This document shows positions 7,024-12,965 of a DNA stretch of 34,166 bases, piece by piece; within the stretch, counting starts at the first letter, position 1, and each line of letters opens with the position of its first letter. The notes beneath the pieces were generated by a model. That model ran no database searches. It was given only the letters and a program-made list of their open reading frames with translations, and had not been told where the DNA came from. The stretch covers positions 1-34,166 of the forward strand of contig CAMAUE010000047.1 of NCBI GenBank assembly GCA_945861245.1. Direction: 5' to 3'. The translations under genes and the position numbers were made by a program. The DNA is from Singulisphaera sp. GP187. GTDB taxonomy: Bacteria > Planctomycetota > Planctomycetia > Gemmatales > Gemmataceae.

Positions 7024-9066
7024 CTACCGCCTCATCGGCAGCGTCGTCGGCCAAGCGTAGTTGACGCCAGGCGTTGCGGCTTTCTCTCCCGTGGCCTGTT
7101 TGTAGCGGGCGAGCGCCATAAGCGGGAAGTAGAGGCGGTACATGTGGTAACGGAGGTAGAAAACCTTCGGGAATCCGGTGCCGGTAAACTGCGGTTCGTC
7201 CCAGTTGCCTTCGGCGTTCTGCGTGTCGATGAGATACTGCACGCCTCGCCGAACCGCGTCCGAGTTTGCTTCACCTGCCGCGATTAGTCCCGCCAAGGCC
7301 CACGCGGTCTGCGATGGAGTAACCTCGCCTGTGCCCGCTAACGACGGATCATCGTAGCTCAGACACGTCTCTCCCCATCCGCCTGACGCTTGTTGGACGT
7401 GCTTCAGCCAATCGACGGCTCGGCGAATCATCGGCTGCTGCATATCTAAACCGCCGGCCTCGAGGCCGATGAGTACCTGCCAGGTTCCGTAAAGATAATT
7501 GACGCCCCATCGGCCGATCCAGCAGCCACGCCGATCTTGCGTCCTGGCAACGAACTCGACGCCGCGATCGACTTGCGGATGGCCGACTTTGATGCCGAAT
7601 TGGGCAAACGTTTCGATAACCCGCGCGGTGATGTCCGGGCAACTCGGATCGAGCATGGCGTTGTGGTCGGCAAACGGAACCTTGGTAAGGATTTCGTGGT
7701 TGATATCGCGGTCGAACGCCGCCCAGCCGCCGTCCTGGTTTTGCATCCGCATCAGCCAATTCAAGCCGCGCCGAACAGGCGGGATGATCTCTTTGCAACC
7801 CGTTGCCGACGGCGTGGCATTGTCGAACGCGCTGCCGCTGCGGGCCAGGCCCATGAGGACCATGGCGGTGTCGTCGATGTCGGGATAGAAGTCGTTGCGA
7901 TATTCAAAGAACCACCCGCCCGGTTCGAGATCGGGGTTCATCAGGCTCCAGTCGCCGGGTTGCCGGACCTCTTTCTCCAGCAGCCAATGTGTCGCCTTGG
8001 CAACAGCGGGATCGTCGGCCTCCGTACTCGAAAGTGCCAGCGCATTCAGCGAAAGGGCCGTATCCCAAACCGGCGAGAAGCACGGCTGAAGGCGTAGCGT
8101 GTCGGCTTCCTCGATCATCAGATCATCGAGTTGCTTGAGGGCGTAAACCATCTCCGGAGAGTCGATCGCATAGCCCAGGCAGTTCAGGCTGATGATCGTA
8201 TAGACGATCGGCGGAAAGATCGCGCCGACGCCGTCGGAATCGCGGAAATGATCGAGCATCCAGCTCTTCGCCAACTCGATCGCCTTCTTGCGAATAAACT
8301 TCGGGCCCCACACTTCAAACCATTTGATAATCTGATCGCCGGCGAGAAAGAAATTCGTCCAGGTGAATAGCCGATTGGTCGGCGGGCAGGGCCAAAGTGC
8401 CTTGAACTGATCGTCGAGGAAAAGTTCAGGAATGCCGAGTTCCGGTGGCAGCCGACGTATTGGCTTATGCGCGTAGAAAAGGCTCAACGGCACAATGATC
8501 GTACGCGTCCACGCCGACATCGCGTAGATGTTGAAGTACATCCACTTCGGGAGGAACATCATCTCCGGCGGCACGGCGGCGCAGTTCTCGTAGGGGAATT
8601 GGCCCAAGAATGCTAAGTAGAACTTCGTATAGCTGTTGCACTTCGTTGCGCCGCCAGCCTTCCGTATCTCCTCGCACGCCTGGCGCATGTACGGTTCATC
8701 GGCGGAATGGCCGGCAAGTTTGAGAGCATAATAAGCCTTCACCGAGACGTTGATATCAACCGGCCCGCCGGGATGGTTCGCCCAGCCGCCGTCGGGACGA
8801 CGTTGTTGCAGCAGGTAATTGCCGGCCTTGCGAACGCGTTCTTCGCCCTCGCGACCCAGGAACGTCATCAGCAGGATATACTCCGACTCCAGGATCGTGT
8901 CGCCCTGCAATTCGCCGCGCCAATGCCCATCAGGATTTTGCAGCATATGCAAACAGGCACGAGCGCGTTGAATCGTCGCCGTCGCGTCATGGTCGGCATC
9001 AGGTCGTTCAGGCGATGTCAGCAGTTTAGATTCTTGGATACGAAGTGACGTTGCGAGCGCGGACAT
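7024..9066 (-). CDS. shc: Squalene-hopene cyclase
   Basis: The product has 680 residues and belongs to the terpene cyclases of the alpha/alpha-barrel fold. It converts squalene to hopene/hopanol for hopanoid membrane lipids and acts as a monotopic membrane enzyme. The catalytic DxDD motif is intact (DIDDTA, Asp396-Asp399). Multiple QW repeats are present, for example QNPDGHWRG near residue 43, RRPDGGWANHPGG near 89, MQNQDGGWAAFDRD and TQNAEGNWDEPQFTGTGFP near the C-terminus. The substrate-channel region FLPKWMYFNIYAMSAWTRT and the end FYLRYHMYRLYFPLMAL are typical. Length and motif order match bacterial SHC rather than the longer oxidosqualene cyclases. No other hopanoid gene (hpn) is adjacent. 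Confidence 0.95.
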   Translation of the reverse strand: MSALATSLRIQESKLLTSPERPDADHDATATIQRARACLHMLQNPDGHWRGELQGDTILESEYILLMTFLGREGEERVRKAGNYLLQQRRPDGGWANHPGGPVDINVSVKAYYALKLAGHSADEPYMRQACEEIRKAGGATKCNSYTKFYLAFLGQFPYENCAAVPPEMMFLPKWMYFNIYAMSAWTRTIIVPLSLFYAHKPIRRLPPELGIPELFLDDQFKALWPCPPTNRLFTWTNFFLAGDQIIKWFEVWGPKFIRKKAIELAKSWMLDHFRDSDGVGAIFPPIVYTIISLNCLGYAIDSPEMVYALKQLDDLMIEEADTLRLQPCFSPVWDTALSLNALALSSTEADDPAVAKATHWLLEKEVRQPGDWSLMNPDLEPGGWFFEYRNDFYPDIDDTAMVLMGLARSGSAFDNATPSATGCKEIIPPVRRGLNWLMRMQNQDGGWAAFDRDINHEILTKVPFADHNAMLDPSCPDITARVIETFAQFGIKVGHPQVDRGVEFVARTQDRRGCWIGRWGVNYLYGTWQVLIGLEAGGLDMQQPMIRRAVDWLKHVQQASGGWGETCLSYDDPSLAGTGEVTPSQTAWALAGLIAAGEANSDAVRRGVQYLIDTQNAEGNWDEPQFTGTGFPKVFYLRYHMYRLYFPLMALARYKQATGEKAATPGVNYAWPTTLPMRR

Positions 9067-9309: not shown

Positions 9310-10026
9310 TCATCGCCGAAAGACCCACTCGGCTTGATCGTATCGTTCGGCTACGAGCTGTTCCACCATCGCCTCGGGCCAGGCGCTCATCGTTTGATCC
9401 ACATGCCAGATCTCACGCAAGAGTTGTGTCAGCGTCCCGGCATCGGTCGGCAGGTGCGTCAGAAATTCGTCGTGCGGGCGATCATGGCGATATTCCGGTC
9501 GTCGCGGCGGCAGCTTGAGATAGCGTGATACCGCGCGAGTGTCGAAGCCGTGCAGCAATAGCGTGCCATGATGGAGCAGGTGCGTACGCTTGCGCTGCTG
9601 GGCGTTGCCGGAGAATTTGCGCCCCTGCCAGGTCAGATCGCTGAAGCCGTGGATTGTCAACGGCGAGGCAATCGGTGCAAGAGATTCAACAATGGTGCCG
9701 AGGATATAGCGATAAGACGCACGCAGGTCGCTCAGCATCGGGTCGCGGTCGAAGCGAAGCACGAGGCTGTAGAGCAGGCACCCCGGACCGAGCAACACCG
9801 TACCGCCCCCGGACGACCGCCTGGCGATTGGCACGCCGTCTGCGTTGCATGCGGCAACGTCCACGTCGTCGCCAACTTTTCCGCCGGCGCCGAGCACAAC
9901 CGCTTGGCTTGGCCAATGCCATACGCGCAGACACTCCACACCGCCATCCTCGGCAGCGAGAAGAAGTGCCTCATCCAACGCCAGATTGGCGGGCAGCGTC
10001 GGCAGCGTAAGATCGAGGAATTGCAC
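9310..10026 (-). CDS. Lipoate-protein ligase family protein
   Basis: The product has 238 residues with a GTG start at 10026. The frame is open further upstream, but that part is a word-like repeat (tccttggtccttagtccgta), so the later start is preferred. It has the BPL/LplA/LipB fold signature: RRSSGGGTV (69-77), GPGCLLYS (80-87), and the lipoyl/adenylate lysine in GRKFSGNAQQRKR (Lys137). The ending DAGTLTQLLREIW is as in short LplA-like proteins. These enzymes attach lipoate or octanoate to the lysine of E2 and GcvH proteins. The size fits the ligase/amidotransferase forms that lack a separate C-terminal domain. LplA-type ligase versus LipM/LipL-type transferase cannot be told apart from sequence alone. 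Confidence 0.85.
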   Translation of the reverse strand: MQFLDLTLPTLPANLALDEALLLAAEDGGVECLRVWHWPSQAVVLGAGGKVGDDVDVAACNADGVPIARRSSGGGTVLLGPGCLLYSLVLRFDRDPMLSDLRASYRYILGTIVESLAPIASPLTIHGFSDLTWQGRKFSGNAQQRKRTHLLHHGTLLLHGFDTRAVSRYLKLPPRRPEYRHDRPHDEFLTHLPTDAGTLTQLLREIWHVDQTMSAWPEAMVEQLVAERYDQAEWVFRR

Positions 10027-10120
10027 GATTAGTCCTTGGTCCTTAGTCCGTAGCAAAGTGAGGCCGGTTGTCATAGGATTGGTTTCGCTACGGACCACGG
10101 ACATTTTTGCCGGAGCGAAT

Positions 10121-10939
10121 ATGTTACGATTCATTCGCGTACTGACAGTGTTGATCGTATTGATAGGTTCCGCTCGCGCCATCGGCGGCGAGGTGGTGAA
10201 GCCCAACGCCGATGGCGTGCGAGTGCATCGCATCGTCAGCGAGCACCAGGCCGGACCGACCGAGATTCGCGTTCTCGCACCGGACGTGATGGAAAAGGGT
10301 AAACGCTATCCCGTCGTTTACGTCCTGCCCGTCGAAGCAGGACAGGGCAAGGTCTATGGCGATGGTCTCGCCGAGATCAAGAAACACAATCTGCACAACA
10401 AACTCGGCATCATCTTCGTCGCGCCGACGTTCAGCCATCTGCCCTGGTATGCCGACCATCCGACGAATGCGAAGATTCAGCAGGAGACCTATTTCATCAA
10501 GGTCGTGTTGCCATTCGTGGAGAAGCATTATCCCGTATCGATGATCCGCTGGCTGCTCGGCTTCAGTAAGTCGGGCTGGGGCGCGTTCTCGCTGTTGCTG
10601 CGACAGCCCGAGGTGTTTGCCAAGGCCGTCGCCTGGGATGCACCGGTGCTGATGACGCAACCGAACAAGTATGGCATGGCGGAAATCTTCGGCACGCAAG
10701 CGAACTTCGAGAAATACGACATTGCCAAGCAGCTGACGGCCCGCGCTAGAGACCTCGGCAAAGAGCCACGCCTGGCGCTCATCGGTTACGCCAGTTTCCG
10801 CACGCACCATGTCGAAGCAAATATCCTGATGAAGCGACTCAGCATCGCCCACGAATACCGCGACGACAAAAAGACGCCACACACCTGGCATTCGGGTTGG
10901 GTCGTTGAGGCGGTGCAGTGGTTAGTACTTGGTACTTAG
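10121..10939 (+). CDS. Secreted alpha/beta-hydrolase, esterase family
   Basis: The product has 272 residues starting at ATG 10121, which opens a signal peptide (MLRFIRVLTVLIVLIGSARA). The frame extends far upstream, but that part is antisense to the lipoate ligase gene. The core follows the putative-esterase family: KRYPVVYVLPVE, then KLGIIFVAPTF, the nucleophile region LLGFSKSGWGAF (Ser149 likely) and KAVAWDAPV. A late His in TPHTWHSGW would complete the triad. The substrate is unknown. The last codons (WLVLGT) are read from a tandem repeat of tacttggtact, and the stop codon lies inside it, so the native C-terminus may have been altered. Confidence 0.75.
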   Translation: MLRFIRVLTVLIVLIGSARAIGGEVVKPNADGVRVHRIVSEHQAGPTEIRVLAPDVMEKGKRYPVVYVLPVEAGQGKVYGDGLAEIKKHNLHNKLGIIFVAPTFSHLPWYADHPTNAKIQQETYFIKVVLPFVEKHYPVSMIRWLLGFSKSGWGAFSLLLRQPEVFAKAVAWDAPVLMTQPNKYGMAEIFGTQANFEKYDIAKQLTARARDLGKEPRLALIGYASFRTHHVEANILMKRLSIAHEYRDDKKTPHTWHSGWVVEAVQWLVLGT

Positions 10940-10965
10940 TACTTGGTACTTGGTGCTTAGTCCGT
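10922..10965. repeat. Short tandem word repeat (tacttggtact / tagtacttgg)
   Basis: The segment consists of near-identical units of about 14 bp built on tagtacttggtact. A related array (tagtccttggtccttagtcc) lies at 10030-10048 before the esterase gene, so the two arrays bracket that gene. The downstream array contains the esterase stop codon. Similar wording with the C/A change at the third unit position suggests one family. Confidence 0.6.
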
Positions 10966-11054
10966 CAGTTTCTGCCGAAGGACGAAGCACGAAGCACGAA
11001 GGTCGATTTGGGCACTTGCCAGGCGAAGCAAGGTCGCTACAACGTACAATCTAA

Positions 11055-11224
11055 CGATAGGTGCCTCGGCTTGGGGCCGGGGACAATAGGGAAAACGGTG
11101 TAAATCCGTTGCGGGGCCGCCGCTGTAATCGGCCAGGTTTGTCGCGTTATGCCACTGCTCACGGAAGTGATCGGGAAGGCGCGAGCGAACCGAATGAGCC
11201 GAGAGCCAGAAGACCTGCCTGTCG
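11055..11224 (+). promoter_or_regulatory. Cobalamin (B12) riboswitch aptamer
   Basis: The conserved order of the cobalamin aptamer is present: aggtgcc (11059-11065), aatagggaa (11085-11093), acggtgtaaatccgt (11095-11109), the gcggggccgccgctgtaa junction, gccactg (11151-11157), gggaaggc (11173-11180) and the B12 box agccagaagacctgcc (11204-11219). It is on the plus strand, 150 bp ahead of the DUF1559 gene at 11377 with no gene between. A tacaat string at 11045-11050 could be the -10 element. Riboswitches of this class bind adenosyl- or methylcobalamin and usually reduce expression when the ligand is abundant. Confidence 0.93.
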
Positions 11225-11332
11225 TGTCAACCCTCGGGGCTTCGGACCCAAGCCACCGCGCGGAGATCGTCTATCATCTAAACCTGCCATTCATGGCGGG
11301 TCGAATGCCATCCTCCACGCGTGTATGTCCGT

Positions 11333-11373
11333 TGCCTCTTTTCCTGCCCGAGCCTGGCAGAAAAGGATAGGCA
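11333..11373 (+). promoter_or_regulatory. Hairpin covering the ribosome binding site of the DUF1559 gene
   Basis: The left arm is tgcct-ctttt-(c)-ctgcc (11333-11348) and the right arm is ggcag-aaaag-(gat)-aggca (11356-11373). These pair over 15 bp with one single-base bulge, one three-base bulge and a 7-base loop. The right arm contains the Shine-Dalgarno stretch aaaagga just before ATG 11377, so folding would block ribosome entry. There is no T tract, so translational rather than transcriptional control is likely. It is the natural expression platform for the upstream riboswitch, although about 110 bases lie between them. Confidence 0.6.
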
Positions 11374-11376
11374 CAC

Positions 11377-12192
11377 ATGTTTTCGTTTCGTCGTCGCGCC
11401 GGTTTCACTCTCATCGAGCTGTTGGTCGTTATTGCGATCATCGCGATTTTGATTGCGTTGCTCGTACCCGCAGTGCAAAAGGCGCGCGAGGCCGCCTCCC
11501 GATTGCAATGCTCGAACAATCTCAAGCAACTCGTATTGGCGGTGAACAGTTACCATGGAGCGTTCAAGCGGTTTCCGCCGAACTTCACGACGCCCAATCC
11601 GTCAACCTGGCCCTACAGCTCGACCTACTGGTTCGGCGTCGTCGATCCGGCAAGCAACGTGGATTCGACGAAAGGCCACCTGACGCCCTACTACGAGAAT
11701 CAGACTGCGGCGATCAAATGCCCGTCATTACCGTCCGGCCAACTCAAGGCTGTCTACAGTTCGTTGACGGGCGGCTACGGCTACAATCGCTGTCTGGGCG
11801 GCGTGTATTGGGTCTCGCCGGACTGGTCTACGCCGCTTTCGTACACGAAGCGATTTTCTGATTTTGAATCAACGGGAGAAACGATCGCATTCACCGATTC
11901 GGCTCTGGTAAGCGGAGCGACCGGCGCGACCCCAGCGTTGCAGGAATCCTTTGCCTTGGCGGCGCCGGCGACATCGTTTGTCGGCGGGCCGAACATCGGC
12001 GGGCCGCAACCGACGACGCATTTCCGTCACGGCGGGCTTGCGAATGTGGCGTATCTGGATGGCCATGTGGATGTGCGAACGGAGGTTATCGTCGCCAGTC
12101 CCACGACCTGGACCGCCGCCGCCAACACGCTGCGAGCCCAGAATAACATCGGCTACCTGGCGACAACAAACTTCCCGTACGAGGGGCGCTAA
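11377..12192 (+). CDS. DUF1559 prepilin-like protein (H-x9-DG) under B12 riboswitch control
   Basis: The product has 271 residues. The N-terminus is a type IV pilin/type II secretion prepilin signal, [20 protein letters not shown], with the cleavage Gly at residue 9, Phe10 and Glu14, followed by the usual long hydrophobic helix. [21 protein letters not shown] is the DUF1559 start signature. The C-terminal [17 protein letters not shown] is an exact H-x9-DG motif. Such proteins are highly duplicated in planctomycetes and are thought to be exported pseudopilin-like surface proteins of unknown role. The length is at the short end for the family. The cobalamin riboswitch and RBS hairpin upstream make it unusual. 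Confidence 0.9.
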
Positions 12193-12257
12193 ATTGCAAC
12201 TTGCCACTAATAGCACTCGCAAGGCACCACGAGAGCGTTAAGCGGCAAGCGGCAAAT
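12186..12257. repeat. Degenerate palindrome between convergent genes
   Basis: The right portion gttaagcggcaagcggc resembles the right arm of the cgctaagccgcaagcgg family. The left portion gcgctaaattgcaacttgcc pairs with it only in part. It overlaps the DUF1559 stop codon and separates that gene from the convergent DUF1080 gene. Confidence 0.35.
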
Positions 12258-12266
12258 CATCGCTGG

Positions 12267-12965
12267 CTACTTCGCCTTTGAAGTGATACGAATATTACGG
12301 AACGCGACCGGGCCGTGGTCGCCCTGGAACAACAGCGGGCCGGTCGGGACTTCGTTGTTCTGCAACGCTCCGCCGGTTGCGCCTTTCAATACCTCGGCGT
12401 TTTCGTGGATCACTTTGCCGTTGAGTTCGACTTTCAGAAACTTCGCATTGGCCGTTTTCTTCTTGCCGTCGAATCGCGGGGCCTGGAAGTCGATTACATA
12501 TTTCTGCCATTCTCCAGCTTTGAGACAAGCGTTGAACTTCGGGACGGCAATGCTGTAGATGGCGCCCATGTCACCCATGCCAAGCTTGTCGCGGCCGTAG
12601 CTGTCGAGAATTTGGAGTTCGTATCGGCCCATGAGATAGATGCCGGAGTTGGAGCCTTTGGGGACCATGACTTCGCATTCGACGATGCAGTCGCCGAACT
12701 CGGCGGTGGAGTAGATATCGATGCCGCCGCCGGCGGTGTTGACGAGATCGCTGCCGCCCTTGGTGTAGGTGAGCGCACCTTTGGCATCAACGCCGGCGGT
12801 GCCGACCTGCCATTTATTTTTGTCGTCTTTGCCCTTCACCTTCCAGCCGGTAAGGTCTTTGCCGTTGAATAGCGATGCCGGTGTCGATTTCTCACCGGCG
12901 TGGCCGAGGAGAGTTGCACCGAGGAAAAGCGTGAACATTGTGGTACCGAGAAGCGAACGTTTCAT
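12267..12965 (-). CDS. DUF1080 (3-keto-disaccharide hydrolase-like) secreted protein
   Basis: The product has 232 residues with a signal peptide (MKRSLLGTTMFTLFLGATLLGHA). The fold is a concanavalin-like jelly-roll: SLFNGKDLTGWKVKG opens the domain. FGDCIVECEVMVPKGSNSGI, YLMGRYELQILDSYG, MGAIYS and WQKYVIDFQAPRFD follow in the canonical order, and the end is GPLLFQGDHGPVAFRNIRI. The family is named for 3-keto-disaccharide hydrolase activity and is strongly expanded in planctomycetes. The real substrate here is unknown. It is one complete domain with no fused partner. Confidence 0.92.
   Translation of the reverse strand: MKRSLLGTTMFTLFLGATLLGHAGEKSTPASLFNGKDLTGWKVKGKDDKNKWQVGTAGVDAKGALTYTKGGSDLVNTAGGGIDIYSTAEFGDCIVECEVMVPKGSNSGIYLMGRYELQILDSYGRDKLGMGDMGAIYSIAVPKFNACLKAGEWQKYVIDFQAPRFDGKKKTANAKFLKVELNGKVIHENAEVLKGATGGALQNNEVPTGPLLFQGDHGPVAFRNIRITSKAK

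Follow-up and report, generated by a model that had tools for sequence, protein, structure and literature searches.

Why does a cobalamin (vitamin B12) riboswitch lie just upstream of a gene for a pilin-like protein? The question is raised by a locus in a stretch of 34,166 nucleotides from a genome of the planctomycete family Gemmataceae (hereafter, the window), where the gene behind the riboswitch encodes a DUF1559 protein. Comparing this locus with others leads us to propose that the riboswitch probably stops translation of the DUF1559 gene when B12 is plentiful, and that the protein, which is likely to serve in corrinoid acquisition, would be made when B12 is scarce.

A cobalamin riboswitch before a pilin-like gene

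A preliminary description of this DNA placed a B12 aptamer, with its B12 box, directly upstream of a DUF1559 gene with a prepilin signal, and our searches bear this out. The aptamer scores 109.6 bits against the Rfam model RF00174, whose gathering score is 31.5 bits, and it is the sole Rfam match in the window (covariance search); the protein exceeds the Pfam cut-offs for N_methyl (35.3 bits vs. 21.2) and for DUF1559/SBP_bac_10 (PF07596, 56.8-61.6 bits vs. 23.3). The extent first proposed for the element, 11055-11376, runs to the end of the leader, directly before the start codon, but the aptamer itself begins 13 nt earlier, at 11042. A gene-free interval of 140 nt separates the end of the aptamer from the start codon. 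The identification of the aptamer rests on the covariance score and not on energy folding, as the aptamer by itself folds no better than shuffled sequences (z = -0.61). In scans of 10800-12400, we found 0 promoters and 3 terminator-like sites (vs. 1.7 in shuffles), none of which lies between the aptamer and the gene. Because the downstream neighbor (12267-12965) is on the minus strand, the DUF1559 gene is the only annotated gene that this leader can serve (Table 1). A search of the whole genome (6.04 Mb in 289 contigs; the assembly is 94.66% complete) gave no second RF00174 match. Elsewhere in the window, a squalene-hopene cyclase gene (7024-9066, minus strand) lies near a lipoate-ligase-type gene (9310-10233), which is ordinary.

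Table 1. Features of the riboswitch locus, in coordinates of the window
Feature	Position	Strand	Basis
Cobalamin riboswitch aptamer	11042..11236	+	RF00174, 109.6 bits, E 7.7e-27, model 1-189 (full length)
B12 box AGCCAGAAGACCTGCC	11204..11219	+	Sequence; aligns with the conserved 3' part of RF00174
Leader hairpin CTGCC-CGAGCCT-GGCAG, predicted expression platform	11344..11360	+	Minimum free energy (MFE) fold of 11331-11382
Putative Shine-Dalgarno sequence AAGGA	11363..11367	+	Sequence; paired in the extended stem of the MFE fold
DUF1559 pseudopilin-like protein P0001, 271 aa, riboswitch target	11377..12192	+	Pfam; relatives with the same riboswitch
Prepilin peptidase site G/FTLIE, residues 9-14	11401..11418	+	RRRAG/FTLIELLVV; Pfam N_methyl; NCBIfam TIGR02532
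Long N-terminal helix, type IV pilin-like, residues 12-63	11410..11565	+	AlphaFold2 model
GGYGYN signature, residues 132-137	11770..11787	+	Motif comparison; conserved among relatives
THFRH...DGH signature and H-X9-DG motif, residues 214-230	12016..12066	+	Motif comparison; conserved among relatives
3-keto-disaccharide hydrolase gene	12267..12965	-	PF06439, 126.5 bits; bounds the unit, outside the system

With its prepilin site and its modeled N-terminal helix, the window protein fits the type IV pilin/pseudopilin class. It matches NCBIfam TIGR02532 (30.3 bits, cut-off 16.3), and the AlphaFold2 model has a mean pLDDT of 89.3. In a profile search of the PDB, the best matches are pilins, over the N-terminal part; residues 140-169 also match five designed TPR proteins, and no stretch passes alone. 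By Foldseek, the model resembles pilins only, and weakly. The C-terminal domain had no fold match at E = 0.001, either within the whole model or as residues 64-271 alone (a second model, pLDDT 77.5), and there was no B12-binding fold among the structure matches of the model. The alignment to PF07596 is confined to columns 1-63 of 268, but the C-terminal H-X9-DG motif is nevertheless present. Pfam and fold searches of the protein found no enzyme domain or clear enzyme-like fold, and the domains or folds of BtuG, BtuH, and DUF4465 were not among the matches; Pfam found no TonB plug or barrel domain either. The protein differs from type IV pilins and type II secretion pseudopilins in its larger C-terminal domain, in being under a riboswitch, and in its equivalog scores, which are below the cut-offs for GspG (35.9 vs. 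88.85) and for PilA (33.2 vs. 400 for the Myxococcus model). In viral contigs, matches are mostly to the N-terminus of the pilin.

Conservation of the link and a distinct DUF1559 subfamily

Among close relatives of the protein in named genomes, RF00174 was found upstream at 15 of 17 loci (two lack it, and the sequence of one of these, L017, starts within the gene), as compared to none of the 16 loci that hold other DUF1559 relatives. Across the Gemmataceae, RF00174 matched in 83 of 95 genomes, at 132 places; weak riboswitches are undercounted in our surveys, with 23 candidates scored per genome in the Gemmataceae search and six, under stricter filters, in the phylum-wide search. Two of the 132 places are below the gathering score: one in G060 (27.2 bits, a second match before the same gene) and one in G091 (29.3 bits). 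When we tabulated the first downstream gene, a pilin-like DUF1559 gene was in this position at 82 of the 132 places, corresponding to 81 genes. (Our script called 80 of these places, one of which is the weak second match; one more was recognized by Pfam and another is cut by the contig end.) The target had been called unexpected, but in Gemmataceae the pilin-like gene is the commonest target of this riboswitch. The link is present in 75 of the 95 genomes and in 31 of 39 genera, and where a genome has exactly one RF00174 match, it is on the DUF1559 pilin gene in 51 of 59 cases. At 79 loci, the aptamer ends a median of 117 nt before the start called for the gene.

Three other places precede apparent pilin remnants. 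At these loci (L094, G010:C1:522426; L095, G009:C1:904198; and L114, G012:C1:7358290), the riboswitch lies before a short pilin-like start, such as GFTPVELLIVV, and the rest is missing. At another locus (L174, G011:C1:1322683 and 1324193), there are neighboring copies of the riboswitch, each with its own DUF1559 gene, and L192 (G091:C797) has three neighboring riboswitch matches.

Outside the Gemmataceae, we examined 109 places, mostly the best-scoring matches of the phylum-wide search, and found a pilin-like gene behind 24 of them. Twenty of the 21 places in a second family (f2) have the link; there are single cases in the families f92, f8, f4, and f87 and none in the other 42 families. Seven f2 genomes, all from one genus, had no RF00174 match in that search. 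The frequency of the link among close relatives and across the family, as compared to its absence from the other DUF1559 relatives, rejects a chance neighbor. A sub-threshold RF00174 score, or a link that related genomes do not share, would have refuted the preliminary description; we observed neither. (A binomial calculation for chance adjacency assumed 65 DUF1559 genes among 5000 and gives only the order of magnitude.)

The linked pilins form a distinct subfamily of DUF1559, as judged from motifs and a phylogenetic tree. A loose G[YF]xYN-type motif is present in 73 of 98 riboswitch-linked proteins and an HFRH-type motif in 62 of 98 (both together in 44), vs. 0 of 71 other DUF1559 proteins tested for either motif. 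In a tree of 168 DUF1559 proteins, of which 97 are linked, the linkage label needs just 3 changes. A branch with SH-aLRT support of 100 has 89 linked and 0 unlinked proteins on one side, including all 19 proteins from f2. The 8 linked proteins outside this main branch imply that the riboswitch probably joined related DUF1559 genes more than once. The tree took 97 of the 106 linked proteins, 58 of 60 paralog loci, and 13 of the 16 other relatives; the nine linked proteins left out were 4 that are cut by contig ends, 1 short protein, 2 that were added by hand, the double match in G060, and one from G461 (strict motif). The paralog loci come from two genomes, with the 30 highest-scoring of 65 PF07596 matches taken from one and the 30 highest-scoring of 80 from the other, so divergent paralogs are under-sampled. 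There are 65 PF07596 matches in the window's genome and 65-80 per genome in the two that we examined, and the linked protein is among the weaker matches of its own genome (56.8 bits for the window protein and 43.4 bits in G375).

Other planctomycete DUF1559/H-X9-DG proteins share the N-terminal PF07596 region and the H-X9-DG motif with the linked subfamily, which differs from them by its G[YF]xYN and HFRH-type signatures and by the riboswitch. DUF1559 is the largest group of paralogs in Planctopirus limnophila, with 68 genes, two of which are essential (PMC10632474), and Rhodopirellula baltica has 74 DUF1559 genes (PMC2754498). In the portions of these two papers that were available, we found no connection of DUF1559 to B12, and in the open-licence literature, as far as it was accessible, we found no report of a cobalamin riboswitch before a pilin-like DUF1559 gene. 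The riboswitch gives one subfamily of DUF1559 a ligand to test.

Predicted control, the B12 regulon, and the need for B12

The leader of the window's gene is predicted to form a hairpin next to the ribosome site (z = -2.04 for the fold of 11331-11382; 7 of 200 shuffles were equally stable). Our search pattern for this element required a perfect 4-bp stem, a loop of the form CG..CC, and a ribosome site shortly after it. It was found in 61 of 79 Gemmataceae DUF1559-linked loci with aptamers above 80 bits, vs. 26 of 4540 plain shuffles, and also at 16 of 39 Gemmataceae riboswitch places that our script had not called pilin; these 39 include 2 later-recognized pilin genes and 3 places with pilin remnants. 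We identified 14 of the 16: 9 precede DUF6580 or MetE, 2 pilin genes, 2 pilin remnants, and 1 DUF4465. Among 51 distinct copies with a 6-nt loop, which do not include the window's hairpin (7-nt loop), the next outward pair is not fixed by the search pattern, and it pairs in 49 (as T-A, C-G, or T-G); pairing further outward is patchy (18 to 38 of the 51). None of the 24 linked loci from other families has the Gemmataceae hairpin. The recurrence of a hairpin that adjoins the ribosome site suggests translational control. Given the riboswitch family, and given that the platform is shared with genes for times of B12 scarcity, B12 likely represses the pilin-like gene.

Setting aside the pilin genes and the pilin remnants, there are 47 riboswitch places in Gemmataceae. 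Of these, 39 precede genes of the B12 regulon (19 DUF6580, 8 NrdA, 3 MetE, 2 CbiM, 2 CobN, 2 ChlI-type (ChlI-VWA), 2 FecCD/BtuCD, and 1 CobB) and 8 are unassigned. This resembles other RF00174 riboswitches, with the same full-length aptamer, the B12 box, and a regulon that consists otherwise mostly of B12 genes; it differs in the most frequent target in Gemmataceae, which is a pilin-like gene. DUF6580 (PF20221) is a small protein (for example, L111:4317-4880) that recurs between the B12 riboswitch and a BtuF-like gene: a BtuF-like match comes next at 16 of the 19 DUF6580 places. DUF6580 also occurs behind the pilin in f2 loci, and we consider it a candidate for the inner-membrane part of B12 uptake. 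Other genes behind the riboswitch include an NrdA gene with NrdB behind it (L113:4276-7900) and, in Limnoglobus roseus, a 1484-aa protein with DUF4465 and Big_3_5 domains whose gene begins 341 nt after the riboswitch (L131:4628-9082). A hemopexin-repeat gene (L204:4215-4775) lies behind a weak RF00174 match (35.2 bits).

Behind the pilin itself, corrinoid genes or associated genes (DUF6580 and DUF71) were found at 9 of the 82 Gemmataceae places and at 5 of the 24 places in other families, or 14 of 106 loci, by a tblastn survey of the same strand with 15 references; many of these loci have only 1.5-4 kb of downstream DNA. No such gene was found at any of 76 control loci, which comprise 60 paralog loci (flanks of about 1.5 kb) and 16 relatives; the flanks of the controls are partly shorter. 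Four of the 14 positive loci (in G093, G370, G175, and G116) have only DUF6580 or DUF71, and the one in G034 has a BtuF-like fragment in a frame that matches no Pfam family. In G007, DUF6580 lies in the stretch that was read and PF01497 further on. The clearest run, at L342, is all in one direction: riboswitch, DUF1559, DUF6580, BtuF, FecCD, an ABC ATPase, CobU, and a second BtuF. At L339, DUF1559 is followed by DUF6580, a BtuF-like gene, a DUF71-type gene, CobT, and CobS, and L349 is alike. The Limnoglobus roseus locus, L350, has CbiB, an aminotransferase, a CobU match, and BtuF behind DUF1559; our guess is that the aminotransferase has a CobD-like role.

Do these bacteria need to import B12? 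The activation domain of MetH (PF02965) is present in 85 of the 95 Gemmataceae genomes, CbiC in 6, and a TonB plug in 21 (over the cut-off in 19). Because MetH is common while CbiC and TonB receptors are rare, B12 import is called for, and Gemmataceae with the link are predicted to need B12 but not to make it. In the window's genome, MetH is present, FecCD gives a match below the cut-off, and a single PF01497 gene was found, with no ABC gene in the three neighboring frames that were tested; profile searches of this genome did not find CbiC or the TonB Plug domain. Across the family, PF01497 (the BtuF type) is present in 61 genomes; 25 of the 34 genomes without it carry the link, which rejects BtuF as an obligate partner. 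FecCD is found in 82 genomes at E = 0.001 and over the cut-off in 60, with E below 1e-70 in just 8; outside of those 8 genomes, the matches are weaker than 1e-11 and mostly partial. A BtuC-like permease may be encoded elsewhere in Gemmataceae genomes.

CbiC is present in 1 of the 75 linked genomes vs. 5 of the 20 unlinked genomes (Fisher exact test, p = 0.0014; p = 1.1e-5 among the 83 genomes with RF00174), but these p values overstate independence, as the genomes are related. The contrast comes from 6 genomes of 5 genera in one family. In five of the six CbiC genomes, the riboswitch is on other genes (ChlI or CobN; unassigned in G031). Within one genus (g16), two genomes with CbiC have the riboswitch on CobN and two others have it on DUF1559. 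In other families, we found CbiC in none of 50 genomes, which include some that bear TonB receptors, so there is no contrast there.

We also considered whether the absence of TonB receptors explains the link inside Gemmataceae. This is unsupported: the link does not track plug absence (15 linked genomes with a plug and 60 without; 6 unlinked genomes with and 14 without; Fisher p = 0.37), and the contrast is between families only. In f2, a plug is present in 6 of 32 genomes tested, and all six are linked (6 of the 20 linked genomes).

What the pilin-like protein may do

In some other planctomycete families, TonB receptors occupy the same place behind the riboswitch. Outside Gemmataceae, a Plug match lies right behind the riboswitch at eleven places (the non-Planctomycetia genomes in this survey were chosen partly for receptor-like targets), and the largest non-pilin target group has 22 of 85 places, linked by BLAST, with TonB receptor domains in two members by Pfam. 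The best reading of these gene orders, we think, is that the pilin-like gene holds the regulatory place that TonB-dependent receptors such as BtuB hold in some other planctomycete families. Unlike a BtuB-type receptor, the window protein has no plug or barrel match, and the window's genome has no Plug match.

There are precedents for extracytoplasmic capture proteins at B12-riboswitch loci. BtuG of Bacteroides was once an uncharacterized extracytoplasmic protein of such a locus and proved to be a B12 capture protein (PMC6143338); BtuH is another extracytoplasmic B12-binding protein, best known from Bacteroides (PMC8941943); and DUF4465 (BtuJ), also from B12-riboswitch loci, was recently shown to bind B12 (PMC13398666). 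The likeness is that these are extracytoplasmic proteins of B12-riboswitch loci; corrinoid capture by the DUF1559 protein is putative. BtuG is a beta-propeller, DUF4465 is a jelly roll, and they work with BtuB-type uptake, whereas the protein here is pilin-like and is found in genomes that mostly lack plugs.

In the mechanism that we propose, the riboswitch would shut off translation of the pilin-like gene when B12 is plentiful. When B12 is scarce, the DUF1559 protein would be made, exported, and processed as a pseudopilin; its C-terminal domain would bind B12 directly; and the B12 would be handed to an inner-membrane importer, which could be BtuF-like/DUF6580 or, where present, BtuCD. In its full form, this proposal is tentative, and we would not yet bet on it: Gemmataceae and the related family might import B12 via a pseudopilus, with a B12-repressed DUF1559 protein that binds corrinoids in its C-terminal domain, carries them across the outer membrane, replaces BtuB/TonB, and delivers them to a BtuF-like/DUF6580 importer. 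If this is true, a large cofactor would cross the outer membrane by a new, pilin-based route, a pilin would have a job in vitamin uptake, and a branch of DUF1559 would have a function. The question at stake is how bacteria with MetH, in most cases without CbiC or a TonB plug, and rarely with a strong BtuC-type permease, take up B12. Given the link, pilin-based uptake can be tested in strains in culture, for example Limnoglobus roseus.

Of the readings offered in the preliminary description, B12 capture is favored over an unrelated reuse of the riboswitch, because the same riboswitch class is on B12 genes, because runs of corrinoid genes lie behind some of the pilins, and because five of the six CbiC genomes are unlinked. 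A different role is nevertheless conceivable: the pilin could be a B12-repressed adhesion or motility factor, with which a cell short of B12 would build a pilus-like fibre that attaches it to B12 producers or to particles without handling B12. The prepilin site and the pilin-like model would fit such a factor, as would the independence of the link from detected BtuF and the lack of any corrinoid or associated gene in view downstream at 92 of 106 linked loci. But the runs with BtuF, FecCD, CobU, CobT, CobS, and CbiB point to corrinoid handling, and it is mainly one special subfamily that is linked, among 65-80 PF07596 matches per genome, so we consider this role unlikely. The same 14 loci with corrinoid or associated genes could instead mean that the pilin gene is a passenger between the riboswitch and a neighboring B12 operon. 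For the window, this is rejected by the opposite strand of the next gene; more broadly, most linked loci have no corrinoid gene in view downstream and the recurrent hairpin is at the pilin gene's own ribosome site, and we give the idea very little credence.

Two other alternatives concern what the regulation is for. NrdA and MetE belong to the same regulon, so the pilin might, like NrdAB and MetE, be a back-up that takes the place of a B12-dependent function, and not a part of uptake. This seems highly improbable given that the protein has no enzyme domain or clear enzyme-like fold and that the genes behind the pilin are for uptake and salvage. Alternatively, since sequence by itself does not give the direction of control, B12 might turn the gene on, and the protein might store or export excess corrinoid. 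However, the same hairpin and ribosome-site platform is found at scarcity genes (the 9 DUF6580 or MetE places among the 14 identified above), and we would be very surprised if the gene were induced by B12.

Other targets of the riboswitch in planctomycetes outside Gemmataceae fall into several groups of proteins linked by BLAST. Ten proteins (L267, L286, L275, L251, L297, L312, L322, L308, L318, and L323) form one group; of the two that we scanned, one has a dockerin match and the other has no Pfam family. These are possible further B12 capture proteins. Six proteins of 444-526 amino acids (L287, L263, L290, L223, L295, and L310) form another group, and the one that we scanned has a weak match to the SGL propeller, below the cut-off; these are candidates for BtuG-like proteins. 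The last group has four proteins from f75 and f47 (L248, L257, L262, and L289), of which the one scanned is an OprB-type porin.
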